From a virus, in IMG/VR virus record IMGVR_UViG_3300004369_000171, positions 1-22,191 of that record: 22,191 nucleotides of DNA; one strand, 5' to 3'. Both the position numbers and the translations under genes were made by a program. The notes under the pieces are model-generated. The model did no database searches and was not told the DNA's origin. It worked only from the letters and a program-made list of their open reading frames with translations. Positions 5,428-20,702 of this stretch are shown here, piece by piece (position 1 is the first letter of the stretch; the number at the start of each line of letters is the position of its first letter).

Positions 5428-6198
5428 ATGGAGCATTATGGTGTGGTCGGTACAGGTACCGCCCCCAAGAAGGCGATCAATGCATCGCTGGATGACATTG
5501 GCTTAAAGGCGACATACATCATTCCCTGGTACGGACGCGCCCCCAAAGAAAACTCCGGGTTGGAGTGTGTCTACGATTGGGTGACAGAAAACGATGCTAT
5601 GTATAAGGTCGTATCCGCGGCTGGCGCAAAGCCCGTGCATAGGTCCATTGCTGAACGGGCGATAGAGATCATTGAAGTTGACGACGTAGATCTATCCATT
5701 CTCCGTGAACTCAAAGATGTTGCGGGCCTAACGCTGGTTTTGTGGGATGACGAAGACACGTCGCGGTCAACAGATACAGCCATGTCGTCCATCAACTTCA
5801 AACTTCCTACTTTAGAACTGACGAATGGGCTGACCCCCATTATCATTGAGTCCGATACCCCAGCAGTCGTTGAAGTCACAGATAGCACGGTAAACGACAT
5901 GGAAGAATTAGACGTGAGTTCTTTTGACCGCGAAACATTAGAGGTCATGCCAGCGGCCCATGTAAAGAGGTTGGCGCGTAATGCTGGTTACGAAGTTAAG
6001 ACAAAGGAAGAAGCCATCAGTGTAATCCTTGGTGAACCCCTTGAAACCAAGCCCAATGACACGACTGGCACGCTCCCCATCTCTGTTGCCGAGGTGGCCA
6101 TCACCTTTGACAACGGCGATCAGGTGACCTACCGAATTTCTCGTGAGACCATGAGTAAGATTCATCAATTAGTGGTTGACGAATTCGCAGGCATTTGA
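5428..6198 (+). CDS. hypothetical protein with alpha/beta N-terminus and SAP/HeH-like helical segment
   Basis: This is a 256-aa protein whose RBS AAGGAG lies 8 bases before ATG 5428. Residues 1-110 alternate strands and helices: HYGVVGTGTAPKKAI, ATYIIPWYGR, LECVYDWVTENDAMYKVV, GLTLVLWDDED. This suggests a Rossmann-like alpha/beta fold with an N-terminal Gly-rich turn. Residues ~170-205 (DRETLEVMPAAHVKRLARNAGYEVKT, broken over two helices, then EEAISVILG) resemble SAP/HeH-type helix-extension-helix domains that often bind nucleic acid. The end is a short beta-helix unit. It is the last gene before the convergent terminators. The fold calls are by eye and no function is assigned. Confidence 0.65.
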   Translation: MEHYGVVGTGTAPKKAINASLDDIGLKATYIIPWYGRAPKENSGLECVYDWVTENDAMYKVVSAAGAKPVHRSIAERAIEIIEVDDVDLSILRELKDVAGLTLVLWDDEDTSRSTDTAMSSINFKLPTLELTNGLTPIIIESDTPAVVEVTDSTVNDMEELDVSSFDRETLEVMPAAHVKRLARNAGYEVKTKEEAISVILGEPLETKPNDTTGTLPISVAEVAITFDNGDQVTYRISRETMSKIHQLVVDEFAGI

Positions 6199-6207
6199 TA
6201 CTCTCAA

Positions 6208-6231
6208 TGTTGACCCCAATAGGGGTCAACA
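6208..6231. repeat. perfect 10-bp inverted repeat, possible operator or hairpin
   Basis: The arms are TGTTGACCCC (6208-6217) and GGGGTCAACA (6222-6231), a perfect 10-bp inverted repeat with the 4-base loop AATA. It lies 9 bases after the last late-gene stop. No T-run follows on either strand, so a simple intrinsic terminator is not well supported. The GGGGTCA core also occurs in the repeats at 7812-7909. Confidence 0.6.
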
Positions 6232-6781: not shown

Positions 6782-6972
6782 CAGTCCTTGTACCCTCCGC
6801 CAGCATCTTTGTACCGCTTGGCAAGTAGTTGTGCTTTACGGGCTGACCATTCTCCTGGATCGCCACCCTTGGTGCCAGCCTTAATCTCATTGAACAGACG
6901 CTTACGTAATGCTGGCTTAGTGTAGTTACCAGCCTCGTTGACCTTAGATTCGGTCTTCTTCTTAGCGGCCAT
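6781..6972 (-). CDS. conserved small basic phage protein
   Basis: The ATG at 6972 overlaps the upstream TAA as TAATG. A GTG two codons earlier (6978) is less likely. The 63-aa product has ESKVNEAGNYTKPALRKRLF, then NEIKAGTKGGDPGEWSARKA and QLLAKRYKDAGGGYKD. The pattern VN.AGNYTKP..RKRLF..IKAG.KGG.PG.WSARKAQ.LA..Y...GGGY is widespread in phages and some environmental bacteria. Its job is unknown. It is often found, as here, beside the DPRL...GVSG...PKRTP family and the WTKQ family. The net charge is strongly positive. Confidence 0.85.
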   Translation of the reverse strand: MAAKKKTESKVNEAGNYTKPALRKRLFNEIKAGTKGGDPGEWSARKAQLLAKRYKDAGGGYKD

Positions 6973-7274
6973 TACCACTTCACCTTGTCTGCCCAGTAAG
7001 CCGCGGACATCTTGCCCTTCTTGATGTTCTCACCATGACGGGCCTTGAATGAGTCGCGCTTCTTTTTCATGGTTTCAGACTCGCCTTCCTTCGGCTTGCC
7101 CGCAGTCTTTGCGCCCTGCTCACCAAAGCGGATTGTCTTGACCTGGTCACCTTCCTTGGCGACAACAATATGTGACTTAGTCGGATGATTGGGTGTGCGC
7201 TTGGGCTTGTTGTAACCGCTTACGCCAGCCCGCTCAAGACGTGGATCTTTCTTGGATTCCTTTTTATCAGCCAC
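6972..7274 (-). CDS. conserved small phage protein (DPRLERAGVSG...PKRTPNHPTKSH family)
   Basis: This is a 100-aa first gene of the minus-strand operon. It starts with GTG at 7274, preceded by AAGGAG with a 5-base gap. Its sequence holds DPRLERAGVSGYNKPKRTPN, HPTKSHIVVAKEGDQVKTIR, FGEQGAKTAG and KARHGENIKKGKMSAAYWAD. The PNHPTKSH...KTIRFG..GA.TAG core and KARH..NI.KGKMSAAYWADKVKW end are diagnostic of a small family common in cyanophages and other myoviruses, of unknown function. The composition is basic. A candidate -10 (TACAAT) lies about 40 bases upstream on the same strand. Confidence 0.88.
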   Translation of the reverse strand: MADKKESKKDPRLERAGVSGYNKPKRTPNHPTKSHIVVAKEGDQVKTIRFGEQGAKTAGKPKEGESETMKKKRDSFKARHGENIKKGKMSAAYWADKVKW

Positions 7275-7328: not shown

Positions 7329-7363
7329 AACGGAGTCGGGTGCTTGCGCGACCCGACCCCGTT
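7329..7363 (-). terminator. terminator-like hairpin on the minus strand
   Basis: The arms 7329-7341 and 7351-7363 form a 13-bp stem with a 9-base loop. Read on the minus strand, the single imperfect pair is a G-U wobble and the stem is followed by TTTTCGTTTT, as in intrinsic terminators. No T-run follows on the plus strand. Its position upstream of the minus-strand operon suggests either an attenuator in a longer leader or the 3' end of a short RNA. Confidence 0.6.
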
Positions 7364-7480: not shown

Positions 7481-7521
7481 TTGCGGTGCCCCTGTGACCT
7501 CGGCTATAGTCCACCGACTAT
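7481..7521 (+). promoter_or_regulatory. candidate leaderless promoter with overlapping dyad
   Basis: TTGCGG (7481-7486), an 18-base gap and TATAGT (7505-7510) precede the ATG at 7520 by only 9 bases, and no Shine-Dalgarno sequence is seen. This fits a leaderless or nearly leaderless mRNA. A perfect 6-bp inverted repeat, ATAGTC (7506-7511) and GACTAT (7516-7521), spans the -10 and the start codon and could be an operator. Confidence 0.45.
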
Positions 7522-8764
7522 GACCACCAACCACTTTGACGGGCCATTCGTAGCGGTCCCCGTGTGGGCCTTACCAATCATCCGCGACCACGGTCAAGCC
7601 CGTGACCTACAGGTACTCGTTGGTCTTGTTGGATGTATGGATCTCCGCACCCGTACGGTTACCGCGACAATCACTCAAGTCGCTGAATTCATGGGCGTCA
7701 GTACCGCCACTGTCAAACGGGCGCTTCGCTGGTTGGAGTCAGTAGGTATCATTTTGGTATCACGCAGGGCTACTTCTGTAAATGTCTACACCATCGTGTA
7801 CGACGGGGGGAGGGGGGTCACGGGTGATCCCATGGGGGGTCACGGAAGACCCCATGGGGGGTCACGGGTGATCCCCCCCTCCCCTACTAGGGGGGTCACG
7901 GGTGACCCCCTGAACGGTCGAGTTATACCTGCTCAAGCACCCGATAGCAATAGCACAGATATATATGTAAGTAATAGAGAAGTACTAAAGAGAACAGAGA
8001 TGGTCCCCTGCGGGGACGGAGGGGACGACATGATCCTAGGAAGTGATCCTGACGGGGAGCACCAAGAACCCACGCCGAAGGCCGTTAAGAAGCGTGCGCC
8101 CCGAAGCACCTACGAACTTGCTGATCTGTTCATGTATCACCCAAAATCCCTCATGTCTCGCAGTTACACCCAACGCGACCGCGTGATTTTGATGTCGACT
8201 ATGAAGAAACTCACAGAAAACGGGGTCACCCGATCCACGATCTCACGGATGATCAACCGCTTCTGGACTCACCCCTCGTTTCCATCGTACTCCAACCATA
8301 TAGAAGCCTTTGCTAGCCGAGCAGTACAGAAGACACTCATGGAAGACGTTGTTATACGGGTTGAAGACACCAACCCAGTGCTCAACCTGATGGCGAACGA
8401 TTTTGAACGTGGTGACGTAGAACTCCCGTGGAACCCTAGCGCCGACCAACAACTGGCCAAGGTAGTAATGATGCGTTGCATGGATGCGTGCTACCGGTAC
8501 CCAGAGGTAGTGGCTGACATAGCGAGACTGTGGGACGGTAACTTCGACGATGCCGAGTTTCTGGCAACCATTGATGCCCTCAACAGTCTTGTCAGGTGGC
8601 ATGCCTCAAATGAATCAATAGAACACGACGCAGTATTCTCGTTGTTAGAGTGTGTGTCTCTTCCTAGTGAACTCCGTAGTGACGACCCAACTATGCTCCG
8701 ACCCCCGGCTGGTACCATAGGAGAAGCGGTTTACAACTACAGGAGGTTTGGACATGAACGATGA
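7520..8764 (+). CDS. winged-helix replication initiator-like protein
   Basis: I chose ATG 7520 (MTTNHFDGPF), because an upstream in-frame start at 7454 would add residues with no phage-protein character. The product is 414 aa. Residues ~30-95 form a winged helix: TATITQVAEFMGVSTATVKR, then ALRWLESVGIILVSRR and a beta wing VNVYTIV. This resembles DnaD/RepA-type initiators. Residues ~98-135 are Gly/Pro-rich and encode four DNA repeats. Residues 190-414 are mostly helical. It opens the replication module, upstream of a helicase loader and DnaB-like helicase, as lambda O or phage DnaD-like proteins do. An alternative is a transcription regulator. Confidence 0.7.
   Translation: MTTNHFDGPFVAVPVWALPIIRDHGQARDLQVLVGLVGCMDLRTRTVTATITQVAEFMGVSTATVKRALRWLESVGIILVSRRATSVNVYTIVYDGGRGVTGDPMGGHGRPHGGSRVIPPSPTRGVTGDPLNGRVIPAQAPDSNSTDIYVSNREVLKRTEMVPCGDGGDDMILGSDPDGEHQEPTPKAVKKRAPRSTYELADLFMYHPKSLMSRSYTQRDRVILMSTMKKLTENGVTRSTISRMINRFWTHPSFPSYSNHIEAFASRAVQKTLMEDVVIRVEDTNPVLNLMANDFERGDVELPWNPSADQQLAKVVMMRCMDACYRYPEVVADIARLWDGNFDDAEFLATIDALNSLVRWHASNESIEHDAVFSLLECVSLPSELRSDDPTMLRPPAGTIGEAVYNYRRFGHER
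7812..7909 (+). repeat. four iteron-like dyad repeats inside the initiator-like gene
   Basis: Four 20-bp copies start at 7812, 7834, 7856 and 7890, at spacings of 22, 22 and 34 bp. The unit in copies 1 and 3 is GGGGGGTCACGGGTGATCCC. Copy 4 differs at one base near its end, and copy 2 is changed in the right half. Each unit has dyad symmetry (GGGGTCAC, GG, then GTGAYCCC). The copies fall in all three reading frames, so the DNA sequence rather than the protein is repeated. Confidence 0.85.
7951..8000. other. AT-rich segment next to the iterons, candidate DNA-unwinding element
   Basis: 35 of these 50 bases are A or T, including ATATATGTAAGTAATAG, in a gene that is otherwise near 50% GC. It begins about 40 bp after the last iteron. 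In lambda and many plasmid origins an AT-rich melting region sits beside the iterons. The role here is inferred from this layout. Confidence 0.5.
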
Positions 8765-9182
8765 GTTATTCTCCGATGACGATCCTGCGTACATGTTCGA
8801 CAGTCTGTCTGATCTCATTAACTTTGTTACCTGGTTAACAGACAACTTCGACAGCCCAGAAGACTTTGAAGCCCTGATTGCCGAAGTAACCCAGCAAGAT
8901 TTTGACGAAGCATATGAGGACGGGGCGGGGTTGGAAGATGTTCTTGACCGCATCCTCTTACGAGGTAGTTGTACCCGTCACGCCCAATCAGAAAATGAGT
9001 ACTTGGAATGTCCCGAGTGCGGTGCTATATTCGTCACCCCGTCAGGATTAGGAATCCACATGTCGGTGCTCCACACTGACAGCAATGCGTCTGATAAGGA
9101 CACCGAGTTTTGGTCCATCATAGAGAACTTCTACACGAACCACCAAGAGGAACCCAATGGCGACCTACAACATCCCGAGTGA
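8754..9182 (+). CDS. acidic protein with a C2H2 zinc finger
   Basis: I chose ATG 8754 because AGGAGG lies 7 bases upstream; a TTG at 8748 would add two residues. The start overlaps the initiator-like gene by 11 bases. The 142-aa product is very acidic in residues 1-65 (SDDD, DFDEAYEDGAGLEDVLD). It then has one C2H2 finger: C86-x2-C89-x12-H102-x4-H107 (LECPECGAIFVTPSGLGIHM). A single C2H2 finger near replication genes occurs in other phages and could mediate DNA or protein contact. It lies between the initiator and the helicase loader, so a role in assembling that complex is plausible but not shown. Confidence 0.8.
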   Translation: MNDELFSDDDPAYMFDSLSDLINFVTWLTDNFDSPEDFEALIAEVTQQDFDEAYEDGAGLEDVLDRILLRGSCTRHAQSENEYLECPECGAIFVTPSGLGIHMSVLHTDSNASDKDTEFWSIIENFYTNHQEEPNGDLQHPE

Positions 9183-9759
9183 ATGGAAACCCGAAGGATG
9201 GTGGCGTAACCGACCGGTAGACGAGAGGTTATTTCATCTCCATGTACCCCGTCGGTGGCGCGACACGCATTTTTGTGACTTAACTACCCCCGACACCACA
9301 GCGGATCAAATCGCTGAGTGGTTAGGTGGTTTTAGTAATGGCGACTGCCTGTATATCCACGGGCGCAATGGTGGCGGTAAGACCGTCATTGCTCAAGCGC
9401 TGGTTAAGTACCTTGTGAGTACCAATAAGTTGTCCGGTCGATTTCTTAGTAGTGAGCGCTATATCGACATGCTCCACGATTCGTTCGATAACAACAATGA
9501 GTTGCCCGAGATGTACTCATCTCGGCACCTGTTGAAGTACATCCAAGGGGTATTCGACATCCTGGTTCTCGACGGTGTTGGTCAAGAACGCGACACTGAA
9601 TTCACACGTCATGAGATCGGTAGTCTTATACGTCGTCGATATGAAGATGGTCGGTCGATTATTATTACAACGTCGTTCTCACAGATCGATTTTGTTCGCC
9701 GGTACGGTGACCGCGTCAAGATCGCAATTTCAGAAATGCCAACTCTGAAGGTGAGTTGA
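9157..9759 (+). CDS. DnaC/IstB-like AAA+ helicase loader
   Basis: This 200-aa ATPase is expected to load the DnaB-type helicase encoded two genes on. The Walker A motif is GRNGGGKT at residues 69-76. Walker B is ILVLD with D139, followed by GVGQE rather than the usual D-[DE]. A sensor-like ITTSF lies at ~170, and a short N-terminal Trp-rich segment (SEWKPEGWWRNRP) precedes the core. It lacks a long C-terminal domain, as do phage and bacterial DnaC proteins. The start overlaps the zinc-finger gene by 26 bases, with GAGGAA as RBS. The order initiator, loader, helicase supports the role. Confidence 0.85.
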   Translation: MATYNIPSEWKPEGWWRNRPVDERLFHLHVPRRWRDTHFCDLTTPDTTADQIAEWLGGFSNGDCLYIHGRNGGGKTVIAQALVKYLVSTNKLSGRFLSSERYIDMLHDSFDNNNELPEMYSSRHLLKYIQGVFDILVLDGVGQERDTEFTRHEIGSLIRRRYEDGRSIIITTSFSQIDFVRRYGDRVKIAISEMPTLKVS

Positions 9760-10199
9760 TGGAGGGCAACGATATCTTTTCGTATGACCGTATTGGGCAA
9801 TCGACAATGTTTGAAGGTGTACTAGCGTCACCGCCGTCTGGATCTAAGAAGTTACGTGCCAAGTTTTATGAAGGGCGTGACGACTGGGAAAGTGTCTTAA
9901 AGTTCTGGACTCCCAACGATCTCCCTCTACGATCACTCATTGATTGTGTGAATCGTTTACACCTTGGCACGGAAGTCATCACGTTTCTGCACTCCGACGC
10001 GGCTGAGCCGATCTACGAATGGTTGTCACGTAAAGGTGTTAGCGCTCCTGTCCTGTTCTATGAGAACGCTGAACAATACGCCGAAGATCTTCGATACAAC
10101 AGGGGGGTACGTGTGTTTTACACGAGTAACACAGAAGACGCACACACCGTAGGTATGCGTGCTACCGTCGTCAGTCCGAACACTGCGTGGAGACTCTGA
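9759..10199 (+). CDS. hypothetical alpha/beta protein, 146 aa
   Basis: The ATG at 9759 overlaps the loader stop (TGATG). A TTG one codon earlier is also open. The protein starts MEGNDIFSYDRIGQS. Its second half alternates strands and helices: EVITFLHSDAAEPIYEWLSR, APVLFYENAEQYAEDL, GVRVFYTSN, EDAHTVGMRATVVSP. This resembles the C-terminal part of a HAD-like or other Rossmannoid fold, but a catalytic DxDx(T/V) motif is not visible. I do not recognise the family. It lies between the helicase loader and the helicase, with 1-base overlaps on both sides, so it belongs to the replication operon. Confidence 0.65.
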   Translation: MEGNDIFSYDRIGQSTMFEGVLASPPSGSKKLRAKFYEGRDDWESVLKFWTPNDLPLRSLIDCVNRLHLGTEVITFLHSDAAEPIYEWLSRKGVSAPVLFYENAEQYAEDLRYNRGVRVFYTSNTEDAHTVGMRATVVSPNTAWRL

Positions 10200-11452
10200 T
10201 GGCGAGTAGCGAACTTCTTCTCATATCCAAAGTACTTGAGACCCGTGACCTCACCACACCAGTTCGTGGTGGTATCAAGCCCTACCACTTCACTGGTCAA
10301 TGGGAAAGTGTTTGGCAGTGGATCATTGAGTTCCAACGAGACCACGGTGAAGTGCCCACCGAGCGTGCTCTCCGATCAGAGTTTGGATCAATAACCCTTG
10401 CCGATACTGAGGGCGAGACCATGAGTCGACTCATGGAGGAACTCTTTGATGGTCACAAGACGCGCACGCTAAGTGATGGTCTACAGGAAGCCTTTAACGC
10501 TCTCAATGACAGCGACCCCGACAAGGCCATGTCTCTCGTTACCACCAGCGTGCAAAAAGCCGCTGTTGAATCCTCCCGCATCCGAGACGTAGACATCATT
10601 CAGAATTGGGAAGAACGTATTGCTCGTTACGAAGAAATGAGTAACACACCGAATGCACTTCGTGGGATTCCTACCGGGTTTGAAGGTCTTGACAAAATCA
10701 CCCACGGGTTGCGCCCCCAGCAGTTCATTGTGTTCGCTGGTGAGCCAAAGCGTGGTAAGTCGCTGTTCGCTTTGATCATCGCCAACAGTGCTCACCGTTT
10801 CGGTAAGCGCCCACTATTCGTATCATTTGAGATGAGTGTTGAAGAGCAGACCGCCCGATACGACTCCTTGATTTCTAAAGTTCCATACACACGTATCTTG
10901 TCCGGGGACCTTAACAAGGATGACAAGGACAAGATCAAGAAGGCGTTGATGTTACGGAAAAACATGCAACAGTTCATCATCAGTGAGGACACCTCATCGT
11001 TGACCACTGTTAGCGCCTTGTCAGGAAAAGTCAAGGAGTACAAGCCCGACCTGTTGGTTGTTGACGGTGTGTACTTAATGGATGACGACGAGGGTCAAGA
11101 AAAAGGTTCACCGCAGGCCCTCACGAATATCACACGCGCTCTTAAACGTCTTGCTCAACACCACGACATACCAGTGGTTGCAACAACACAGGTACTTGCT
11201 TGGAAAGTACAAAACCGTAAGACACGCGCGGTTACCGCTGATGCCATTGGGTACACATCATCGTTCGCTCAAGACGCAGACTTAGTACTTGGCGTAGAGC
11301 GAAACCCAGAATTAGACGATCAGGCAATCATCCGAGTTGTCATCGCACGAAGTGCTCCCACTGGAGAGGTGCACGTTAAGTGGGACTGGACAACAATGGA
11401 GTTTGAAGAAGTTTCCAATTATGACGGCTACTCAAACGCAACCTTCGACTAA
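10199..11452 (+). CDS. dnaB-like: DnaB-like replicative DNA helicase
   Basis: The ATG at 10199 overlaps the upstream stop (TGATG). A GTG at 10187 is possible but less coupled. The 417-aa product has a helical N-terminal domain (residues 1-130) and a RecA-fold motor. The motor begins with LRGIPTGFEGLDKITHGLRP and carries Walker A GEPKRGKS (181-188), FVSFEMSVEEQTARYDSLIS (motif H1a region) and Walker B LLVVD with D289. The motif VVATTQVL follows (~residue 330). This is the hexameric 5'-3' fork helicase that works with the loader, primase and polymerase of the same operon. Confidence 0.92.
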   Translation: MASSELLLISKVLETRDLTTPVRGGIKPYHFTGQWESVWQWIIEFQRDHGEVPTERALRSEFGSITLADTEGETMSRLMEELFDGHKTRTLSDGLQEAFNALNDSDPDKAMSLVTTSVQKAAVESSRIRDVDIIQNWEERIARYEEMSNTPNALRGIPTGFEGLDKITHGLRPQQFIVFAGEPKRGKSLFALIIANSAHRFGKRPLFVSFEMSVEEQTARYDSLISKVPYTRILSGDLNKDDKDKIKKALMLRKNMQQFIISEDTSSLTTVSALSGKVKEYKPDLLVVDGVYLMDDDEGQEKGSPQALTNITRALKRLAQHHDIPVVATTQVLAWKVQNRKTRAVTADAIGYTSSFAQDADLVLGVERNPELDDQAIIRVVIARSAPTGEVHVKWDWTTMEFEEVSNYDGYSNATFD

Positions 11453-12341
11453 TCTTGCCGACCTCCTACGCACAGCGGGTGTGTCGATTAAATCCGTTGG
11501 CGAGCGTGAGATAACCGGGAAATGCCCGGTGCACGTGCGCGTAACTGGTCGGGAAGACCGTTCGCCTTCTTGGAGTATTAACGCCGAGAGTGGTCTGTGG
11601 ATCTGTTTTTCATGCGGGGCTAAGGGCACCTTGTCGATGCTTCTTGCCGAGTTGTTAGGTGCTAACGCAACTTGGGACGTACAGAAGTTCATCATTCAGA
11701 ACTCGATTAATCGTCTCAATAACAAAGGCACTGAGCATCACGAACCGGTTGTCGATATCAACGAATTCACAGCGTTTTCGCGTGTGTCTGATACACGCTG
11801 TGAGTATAAAAACCTGGACCCCGACCTCGTTTACCAATACGGCGTTCGGTGGAACCCAAATAACAGATCATGGGCTATACCGATTGTCTCACCCTCTGCT
11901 GAACTCAAAGGATGGCAGGAGAAGAAGTCTTCTTGGGTGCGTAACTTCCCGATAGGGGTAGAGAAATCAAAGACGTTGTTTGGTATCGAACGCTTTAGAT
12001 CGCGTACGGCGATACTGGTTGAGTCTCCTCTAGACATAGTTCGCTTCGCGGCTGTGTTCTCACGCCCCCAGGCGCTCGCCTCGTTTGGAGCACATGTGTC
12101 CGATACGCAGTTATCTCTACTTACTGACGTAGCAGAACGAGTGGTTATCGCTATGGACAACGACGAGGCTGGGTTAGCGGCCAGTAAAAAGATCGCTAAG
12201 AGGATTGCCACCCCGCGCCGTGGTCTTATGTGGTGGAACTACTCGGGCACCGACGCTAAAGACATCGGTGATATGACCGATGATGAAATTGAAAGTGGTC
12301 TAACAAACGCAACAGTTGTGCCTCCCTGGGTTGGTCTCTAA
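11421..12341 (+). CDS. DnaG-type primase (CHC2 zinc finger + TOPRIM)
   Basis: I chose ATG 11421 (MTATQTQPST); the longer open frame upstream is inside the helicase gene. The gene overlaps the helicase by 32 bases. The 306-aa product has a CHC2 zinc finger with C35-x2-H38 and C62-x2-C65 around RSPSWSINAESGLWICF. Its TOPRIM domain has E201 in TAILVESPLDIVR, and D246 and D248 in VIAMDNDEAG. It is shorter than bacterial DnaG (about 580 aa) and lacks the helicase-binding C-terminal domain, as is common for phage primases. It makes RNA primers at the fork. The stop overlaps the next ATG (TAATG). Confidence 0.9.
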   Translation: MTATQTQPSTNLADLLRTAGVSIKSVGEREITGKCPVHVRVTGREDRSPSWSINAESGLWICFSCGAKGTLSMLLAELLGANATWDVQKFIIQNSINRLNNKGTEHHEPVVDINEFTAFSRVSDTRCEYKNLDPDLVYQYGVRWNPNNRSWAIPIVSPSAELKGWQEKKSSWVRNFPIGVEKSKTLFGIERFRSRTAILVESPLDIVRFAAVFSRPQALASFGAHVSDTQLSLLTDVAERVVIAMDNDEAGLAASKKIAKRIATPRRGLMWWNYSGTDAKDIGDMTDDEIESGLTNATVVPPWVGL

Positions 12342-19490: not shown

Positions 19491-19837
19491 TCTTCGGAGA
19501 TGACGAAGCCAAGGCGCGTCGTAAGGAGCACCAGCGGAGGATTATGAAAGCCTCCCGTAAACAGGAAGACCGCACGGCTAACCGTTACAAGGGTTCCCGT
19601 AATGCCGGGTCTGGCTCAGGATGGCTCCGCAAGAACGACGTGCGTTCTGACAACCTTCTTATCGAGAACAAACTGACTGAGAACACGAAGTCGTACTCGA
19701 TCAAGTTCAAGGAACTCGACGAACTGCGCCAGCGGGCGATTCTTGACGACCGACTTCCCGTACTCCAGTTCGACCTTGGTGGTCGTAACTTCGTGATCCT
19801 CAATGAGGACGATTTCCTGGCGATGATTGATGTCTGA
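19487..19837 (+). CDS. PD-(D/E)XK nuclease, Holliday-junction-resolvase-like
   Basis: This 116-aa protein starts with ATG overlapping the recA stop as ATGA. The first 40 residues are very basic (EAKARRKEHQRRIMKASRKQ). Then a Gly/Ser turn (GSGSGW, 41-46) and the nuclease core follow: D51/D55 and E60-N-K62 in NDVRSDNLLIENKLT. The end has VLQFDLGGRNFVILNEDDF, which fits the last strands. The layout resembles small archaeal/phage resolvases (Hjc-like) with a GSG turn before the D...ExK site. Cleavage of branched DNA made by the adjacent RecA is the inferred role; another endonuclease of the superfamily is possible. Confidence 0.75.
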   Translation: MIFGDDEAKARRKEHQRRIMKASRKQEDRTANRYKGSRNAGSGSGWLRKNDVRSDNLLIENKLTENTKSYSIKFKELDELRQRAILDDRLPVLQFDLGGRNFVILNEDDFLAMIDV

Positions 19838-20702
19838 TTGGGCCACCAAGGATTACAAGCAATCCTTCAAATCACGAGGACGTGTTATCCCCGCGGTTGA
19901 GCGGGCTTTGATGCGCGAGACGGTTGTCCGTAACGAGCATCGCGACACCCTCCACCTACACCCAAGTGAGATATCCAAGAAGGACTGGTGTCCTCGGGCC
20001 TCGTGGTACAAGATTAAGGGACACCCCGTACCGCCTGAGTCGCTGTCGTTTCAGCGTCTAAATATCTTCGCAGAGGGTCATTCGATCCACGAGAAGTGGC
20101 AACGCTGGCTACACCAGGCCGGTCTCTTATCTGGCCTATGGGAGTGTCGAGACTGTACAAATACTTTCTACGCTGATGCTCCTAACATCTGTCAATCCTG
20201 TTTCAGCACGGCGATCAAGTACAAAGAAGTGCCGATCCGTAACGACGAATTGCACATCATGGGGCACTCTGATGGTGAAATCTTTGATGATAATGGCCGC
20301 GCACTGATCGAGATCAAGAGCGTCGGTATTGGAACTGTGCGGTGGGAAAACCCCAGCCTATTCCACGGTTACCAGAATAAGGAACTGACCATCGATGGCG
20401 TGTGGAAGAACATCAAGAAGCCATTCGCTTCCCATATCCGTCAGGGCACGATCTACATGCACTGCCGGAAGATCGACACCATCGTGTTTATCTACGAGTG
20501 GAAGCCCACCCAGGATGTCAAAGAGTTCGTCGTCGAGTACCAGCCCGAAATCATGGAACCAATCATCCAGGGATGCAAGTCTGTTGTTGAGCATCTCGAC
20601 GGGGACACCCCACCGCCACGTACTACTTGGGCCTCGGTAGCCCACCCCGAGTGCAAGAAGTGCCCGTTCTATAAGGAGTGTTGGAGTGCGCGTAATACCT
20701 AA
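19830..20702 (+). CDS. Cas4/RecB-like PD-(D/E)XK exonuclease with Fe-S and zinc-ribbon cysteines
   Basis: ATG 19830 was chosen over a TTG at 19827; it overlaps the upstream gene by 8 bases. The 290-aa product has C54 near the N-terminus and H84 in FAEGHSIHEKWQRW. The active-site residues are D148 in MGHSDGE, E161 and K163 in LIEIKSV, and Q205/Y209 in RQGTIYMH. The C-terminal trio is C275, C278 and C284 (CKKCPFYKEC). Together with C54 these match the four-Cys [4Fe-4S] cluster of Cas4/AddB-type nucleases. A four-Cys ribbon C106/C109/C121/C124 is inserted between the H and D motifs. A DNA end-resection role for recombination is inferred. No cas genes or CRISPR array are present. Confidence 0.88.
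   Translation: MSDWATKDYKQSFKSRGRVIPAVERALMRETVVRNEHRDTLHLHPSEISKKDWCPRASWYKIKGHPVPPESLSFQRLNIFAEGHSIHEKWQRWLHQAGLLSGLWECRDCTNTFYADAPNICQSCFSTAIKYKEVPIRNDELHIMGHSDGEIFDDNGRALIEIKSVGIGTVRWENPSLFHGYQNKELTIDGVWKNIKKPFASHIRQGTIYMHCRKIDTIVFIYEWKPTQDVKEFVVEYQPEIMEPIIQGCKSVVEHLDGDTPPPRTTWASVAHPECKKCPFYKECWSARNT

Follow-up and report, generated by a model that had tools for sequence, protein, structure and literature searches.

A probable replication origin inside the initiator gene of an uncultured contractile-tailed phage

Why would the coding sequence of a phage replication protein contain a cluster of 20-bp dyad repeats? The 22,191-base viral record analyzed here (the window) derives from a contractile-tailed phage, as judged by its baseplate genes, and an initial annotation of it had proposed that an initiator-like gene carries an iteron-type origin. 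From the sequence comparisons described below, we consider it very probable that the gene at 7520-8764 does carry the phage replication origin within its own coding sequence.

The initiator gene and its replication neighbors

The proposal that the gene encodes a winged-helix protein was borne out by structure prediction. The DNA-binding domain is a CRP-like HTH by profile, with a recognition helix comprising residues 61-72 (STATVKRALRWL), and its structural matches include CRP, Fur, and an initiator N-terminal domain, with Z about 9-11. The linker that follows (residues 98-194) was modeled by AlphaFold2 with low confidence and is probably disordered. The dyads, an A/T-rich segment, and a GC hairpin (Table 1) all fall in the part of the gene encoding this linker, between the winged helix and the C-terminal helical domain; disorder of the linker, as modeled, would free the DNA there to evolve as an origin.

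Matches of the initiator to PHROG families were weak (phrog_270 "replication initiation protein," 1.3e-7; phrog_678 "O-like," 2.5e-5), which we count against the origin reading. Neither the window protein, nor four members of the same domain type, nor the protein of lineage L031 matched the Pfam replication protein O model at E 0.001, and for that reason we do not file the initiator in that family. A tblastn search of the window protein against the 50,697 records of an annotated phage collection returned nothing at E 0.01, the GTDB species contigs (host genomes) contained no relative of the C-terminal domain, and searches of solved structures by sequence (C-terminal domain, lambda O, L031) found none. 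Foldseek against the PDB gave only generic winged helices at E 0.05 or worse and was uninformative on the C-terminal fold. A viral structure library contained one full-length relative, an uncultured-phage protein with 39% identity (4.9e-28), and a large number of replication proteins of HTH or O-like type also matched (E 1e-5 to 1e-3), with low TM-scores that are probably due to the disordered linker.

The genes that come next confirm the earlier assignment of a DnaC-like loader and a DnaB-like helicase just 3' of the initiator, the loader gene lying close downstream as in other embedded phage origins. Overlooked in the initial annotation were the hairpin, a small zinc-finger-like gene that separates initiator from loader, and the downstream DnaG-like primase. 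The product encoded between loader and helicase has no Pfam, PHROG, or NCBIfam match. The window further encodes a SNF2-type helicase, a family A polymerase, RecA, an SSB-like protein, a RusA-like resolvase, and a Cas4-like exonuclease (19827-20702; NCBIfam cas4 2.3e-9, below cut-off; phrog_2506 exonuclease 4.9e-32). Rfam and tRNA scans found nothing. Upstream of the initiator, 78 bases (6974-7051) share 83-92% identity with Roseobacter phage SIO1 and relatives, where they are unannotated; they fall within a small minus-strand ORF (6972-7274) of family phrog_7595, of unknown function.

Table 1 Features of the initiator gene and adjacent replication genes, in coordinates of the window.
Feature	Coordinates	Strand	Basis or remark
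Initiator (replisome-organizer-like) gene, 414 aa, probable origin inside	7520..8764	+	Start conserved among relatives (MTTN...)
Winged-helix DNA-binding domain, residues 11-93	7550..7798	+	AlphaFold2 block, pLDDT about 75-93
Low-synonymous-change zone, probably the span of the origin	7802..8041	.	Synonymous difference trough
Dyad (iteron) 1, GGGGGGTCACGGGTGATCCC	7812..7831	.	7/8 symmetry
Dyad (iteron) 2, GGGGGGTCACGGAAGACCCC	7834..7853	.	6/8 symmetry; right half-site degraded
Dyad (iteron) 3, GGGGGGTCACGGGTGATCCC	7856..7875	.	7/8 symmetry
Dyad (iteron) 4, GGGGGGTCACGGGTGACCCC	7890..7909	.	8/8 symmetry
A/T-rich, purine-biased segment, probable DNA unwinding element	7944..8002	.	69% A/T, 71% purine
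GC hairpin GTCCCC-TGC-GGGGAC, far end of A/T segment	8003..8017	.	Paired changes
C-terminal helical domain, residues 195-414	8102..8764	+	AlphaFold2; common to L030, L031, L074
Small protein with C2H2-like zinc finger, between initiator and loader	8754..9182	+	Pfam zf-C2H2 5.2e-4, below cut-off
DnaC-like helicase loader (AAA+)	9157..9759	+	phrog_50 2.6e-20; DnaC, DnaI, IstB-type matches below cut-off
Protein between loader and helicase, function unassigned	9756..10199	+	
DnaB-like replicative helicase	10187..11452	+	Pfam DnaB_C 1.3e-37; phrog_19 1.8e-65
DnaG-like primase (zinc finger + Toprim)	11337..12341	+	Pfam Toprim_2 1e-9, Zn_ribbon_DnaG 7.5e-6; phrog_47 2.9e-28

Dyads, A/T segment, and hairpin among relatives

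The four 20-bp dyads, at spacings of 22, 22, and 34 bp, were reproduced exactly as first described, including the single degraded half-site in copy 2, which parallels copy 2 of the nearest relative, L079 (3 mismatches). The array (7812-7909) lies wholly inside the initiator coding sequence, and the copies occupy all three codon frames (1, 2, 0, 1 relative to 7520). When the codons of the gene were shuffled synonymously, the dyad count in 7800-7920, which is 14 in the native sequence, averaged 2.0 with a maximum of 9 (1000 shuffles), and GGGGTCA, present 6 times in the gene with both strands counted, averaged 1.0 with a maximum of 5 (2000 shuffles). One lone extra GGGGTCA half-site lies at 8222-8228, in the C-terminal part of the gene. 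Elsewhere in the window, TTGACCCCAATAGGGGTCAA at 6210-6229 holds the origin half-sites facing outward just 3' of the gene at 5428-6198 and is perhaps a terminator stem.

Relatives were found by scanning viral contigs with the protein, its helicase neighbor, a C-terminal alignment, and an N-terminal alignment, yielding about thirty distinct initiator genes, with 37-55% identity to the window protein in the aligned set. Using one half-site template per lineage, we found three to four dyads in the linker-coding region of each of the 31 family genes for which the linker was readable, counting that of the window. Dyad spacings in all 31 were 22-23, 33-34, or 45 bp, in the layouts 22/22/34, 22/23/34, 22/33/33, 45/34, 45/23, 23/45, and 23/22/23, setting aside one 39-bp spacing in L079 that arises from a weak, 3-mismatch match outside the array. 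These spacings lie near multiples of 11.25 bp with a coherence of 0.97, a value reached by 0.5% of random spacing sets. The check proposed at the outset, whether related phages keep the repeats while the surrounding codons drift, thus came out in favor of the origin: dyads and spacing are kept, their frames differ, and the synonymous sites around them drift. The proposed GC-skew check, run on six relatives of 92-99 kb, was uninformative: skew follows gene strand, and the lack of a switch at the dyads counts against the origin reading. Each of these six contigs (L123-L152) repeats its first 30 bases close to its opposite end, and in two of them the end repeats are exact over 127 and 67 bases, so all six are probably near-complete genomes.

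In a codon alignment of close groups, synonymous difference was about 0.01-0.12 at 7802-8041 versus about 0.15-0.30 across most of the gene, a trough that coincides with the dyads, A/T segment, and hairpin and rises again on either side. Four-fold sites were changed less often inside than outside the dyads in each of three groups (2.3% vs 14.3%, 0% vs 26.9%, and 3.5% vs 17.1%), the synonymous pair counts within a group not being independent of one another. Between the window and L079, codons for identical residues differed at 65% and 64% outside the region, at 35% in the dyads, and at 5% (1/20, a single synonymous difference) in 7913-8017. The trough and the differing frames support the initial claim that selection acts on the DNA and not on the protein, and the repeats are conserved as nucleic acid; the trough by itself fits DNA-level or RNA-level selection alike.

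The A/T-rich element adjoins the array, as in other embedded origins, and is predicted to unwind. The 35 A/T originally counted in 7951-8000 were confirmed, a level reached by 0.18% of the 50-base stretches of the window, and the best such stretch in the initiator gene, starting at 7944, has 36; the corresponding segment is 69-81% A/T in seven relatives. A DnaA-trio-like reading of the segment was dropped because coding periodicity could explain it equally well. A 14-base inverted repeat (93%), which may be due to chance, places one arm after dyad 4 and before the A/T segment (7931-7944) and the other 581 bases away, upstream of the initiator gene (7336-7349).

The hairpin just 3' of the A/T segment has the form GCTCCC-TGC-GGGAGC in L079, two paired double changes from the window, and in nine other relatives double changes occur at 2 of 4 pairs, with 36 of 36 cells paired. 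The covariation score was equalled in 2 of 500 shuffles, and some relatives keep just three or four pairs. Because comparison with codon shuffles gives the hairpin of a single sequence modest significance (0.002 to 0.2), our case for it draws on the paired changes and the constraint and not on stability. By these sequence criteria it is likely an origin element.

Co-variation of half-sites with the DNA-binding domain

Eleven lineages carry this type of DNA-binding domain. The half-site across their arrays is GTGTCA in L079, AGGTCA in L089, and GGGTCA in the other nine, and residue 66, within the recognition helix, is Ile in L079, Gln in L089, and Lys elsewhere. The lineages with an altered residue 66 are therefore the same two, alone among the eleven, that have an altered half-site; the chance of this match is 1 in 55 if the lineages are counted as independent, with n=2 changes, and the two changes sit separately on the C-terminal tree. 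L081 has R62 like L079, yet an ordinary half-site, which points to residue 66. A further lineage (L030, L031, and L074) has the same C-terminal domain, 35% identical in L031, joined to a different DNA-binding domain that matches O-like initiators strongly (HTH_36 2.9e-15; phrog_391 O-like 5.4e-19), and in place of dyads the linker contains direct repeats, three of 22 bp at 22/23 spacing. Since both the DNA-binding domain and the repeats differ while the C-terminal domain is kept, the domain and its repeats seem to move together as a unit; the swapped state may be either derived or ancestral, since the L031 branch of the C-terminal tree is long. The concerted change of half-site and residue 66 and the joint swap of domain and repeats are indirect signs that the winged helix may bind the dyads.

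Binding alone would also suit operators through which the protein represses its own gene or sets its timing, with the origin located elsewhere. Dyadic sites, like a CRP-like winged helix, are what one expects of a regulator, and initiators often autoregulate. The sites, however, lie about 290-390 bases into the coding sequence and not at a promoter, no promoter-like match was found near the dyads, the constraint runs on through the A/T segment and hairpin, the repeats are swapped along with the DNA-binding domain, and the loader and helicase genes come next; we judge this explanation very improbable. Slightly less credible still is action of the conserved segment in the mRNA, as hairpins that pause ribosomes between the two domains or regulate the operon. 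Both the 3' hairpin and the dyads are able to fold, a function in RNA would equally be expected to leave a synonymous trough, and the hairpin shows paired double changes; but the dyads of one genome change jointly, in step with the recognition helix, and not as separately drifting stems, L031 has direct repeats instead of stems at the same spacing, and the spacings fall in steps close to the helical repeat. The least probable is that the winged helix binds a partition (centromere) or packaging site, as in TubR systems. In favor of it, TubR and archaeal centromere-binding winged helices are among the top Foldseek PDB matches, all of them weak (E 0.05 or worse); against it, the neighboring genes tested are loader, helicase, primase, polymerase, and recombinase with no partition motor among them, and the A/T segment and embedded position suit an origin better.

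Proposed initiation and comparison with known origins

If the locus is an origin, the winged-helix domain would bind each dyad as a dimer, with one subunit per half-site. Taking about 11 bp per turn, the occupied dyads would lie approximately in phase and pack into a compact assembly; in supercoiled DNA this assembly would help open the A/T segment beside it. The C-terminal domain, which from its position and by analogy may contact the helicase loader, would bring the DnaC-like loader of the phage; the loader would place the phage DnaB-like helicase on the opened strand, and the phage primase would then start synthesis. The least certain step concerns the hairpin, which would form after strand separation and serve to mark, or to hold, the place where loading or priming occurs. 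An extended proposal, on balance doubtful, is that the hairpin constitutes a third origin element kept as a fold and not as a sequence (four paired double changes) and serves as a strand landing or priming site for the phage loader, helicase, and primase, that a palindrome in lambda is its counterpart, and that, with the pairing of residue 66 and half-site, the family forms a natural series of origin specificities.

This kind of system is already known; the window adds a protein outside the Pfam O family that is accompanied by a phage-encoded DnaC-like loader, DnaB-like helicase, and primase. Embedded origins have been worked out in a few laboratory phages, and here some thirty natural variants come from an uncultured phage family. 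The variants show what evolution fixes, namely dyad spacings close to multiples of 11 bp, the A/T segment, and the terminal hairpin, and what it swaps, namely the half-site or the whole DNA-binding domain with its repeats, and they make predictions about initiator-origin recognition testable. The search for synonymous troughs could find embedded origins in other viral contigs.

The likeness to lambda O and its origin drawn in the initial annotation holds for the order of elements, which we read in the lambda sequence, and less so for the gene set. In lambda the origin likewise lies within gene O (PMC7466680, PMC6022878, PMC5043065), with four inverted-repeat iterons of 18-19 bp at spacings of 20, 24, and 23 (J02459), followed on the 3' side by an A/T-rich, purine-biased tract (75% A/T, 70% purine) and a 28-bp palindrome in the same place as the window hairpin. 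Lambda O differs in belonging to the Pfam family that the window protein does not match, the PHROG they share being a weak match (phrog_678); the window dyads are GC-rich and without A-tracts; and lambda uses the host DnaB, whereas the window phage has a DnaC-like loader and its own DnaB-like helicase and primase.

With its helicase phage-encoded, the gene set is at least as similar to gp38-gp39-gp40 of SPP1 as to lambda O-P, and the presence of its own loader and helicase, as well as a primase, brings it nearer to SPP1. In SPP1, repeats and an A/T-rich unwinding element lie inside gene 38 (oriL), and the loader gp39 and DnaB-family helicase gp40 are phage-encoded (PMC6316719). The likeness is one of arrangement and gene set: the oriL repeats are direct, whereas the window units are dyads, and SPP1 has a second origin, oriR, for which no counterpart was seen in the related records here. 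In the ten such records with matches, 28 of 31 GGTCA-N4-TGACC sites fall within the initiator gene and no second dyad cluster was seen; as the window is a 22-kb fragment, a second origin may lie elsewhere in this phage. In staphylococcal phage 80alpha, the replisome organizer ORF20, which is SPP1-gp38-like (26% identity) and whose gene is believed to contain the origin, is likewise followed by a DnaC-like loader, ORF21 (PMC5499656); 80alpha is without its own helicase (PMC5499656), unlike the window phage.

In the iteron origins of plasmids (R6K, RK2, P1), arrays of helically phased initiator sites adjoin an A/T-rich region where opening occurs, and the iterons bind monomers (PMC5043065). The window units are instead dyads, with 6-8 of 8 positions symmetric, and not the direct repeats of those plasmids; direct repeats are found in the swapped lineage L031. 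At 5896-5919 of L031, where the A/T segment would be, two tandem copies of CCATCCATAGAA are followed by two hairpins.
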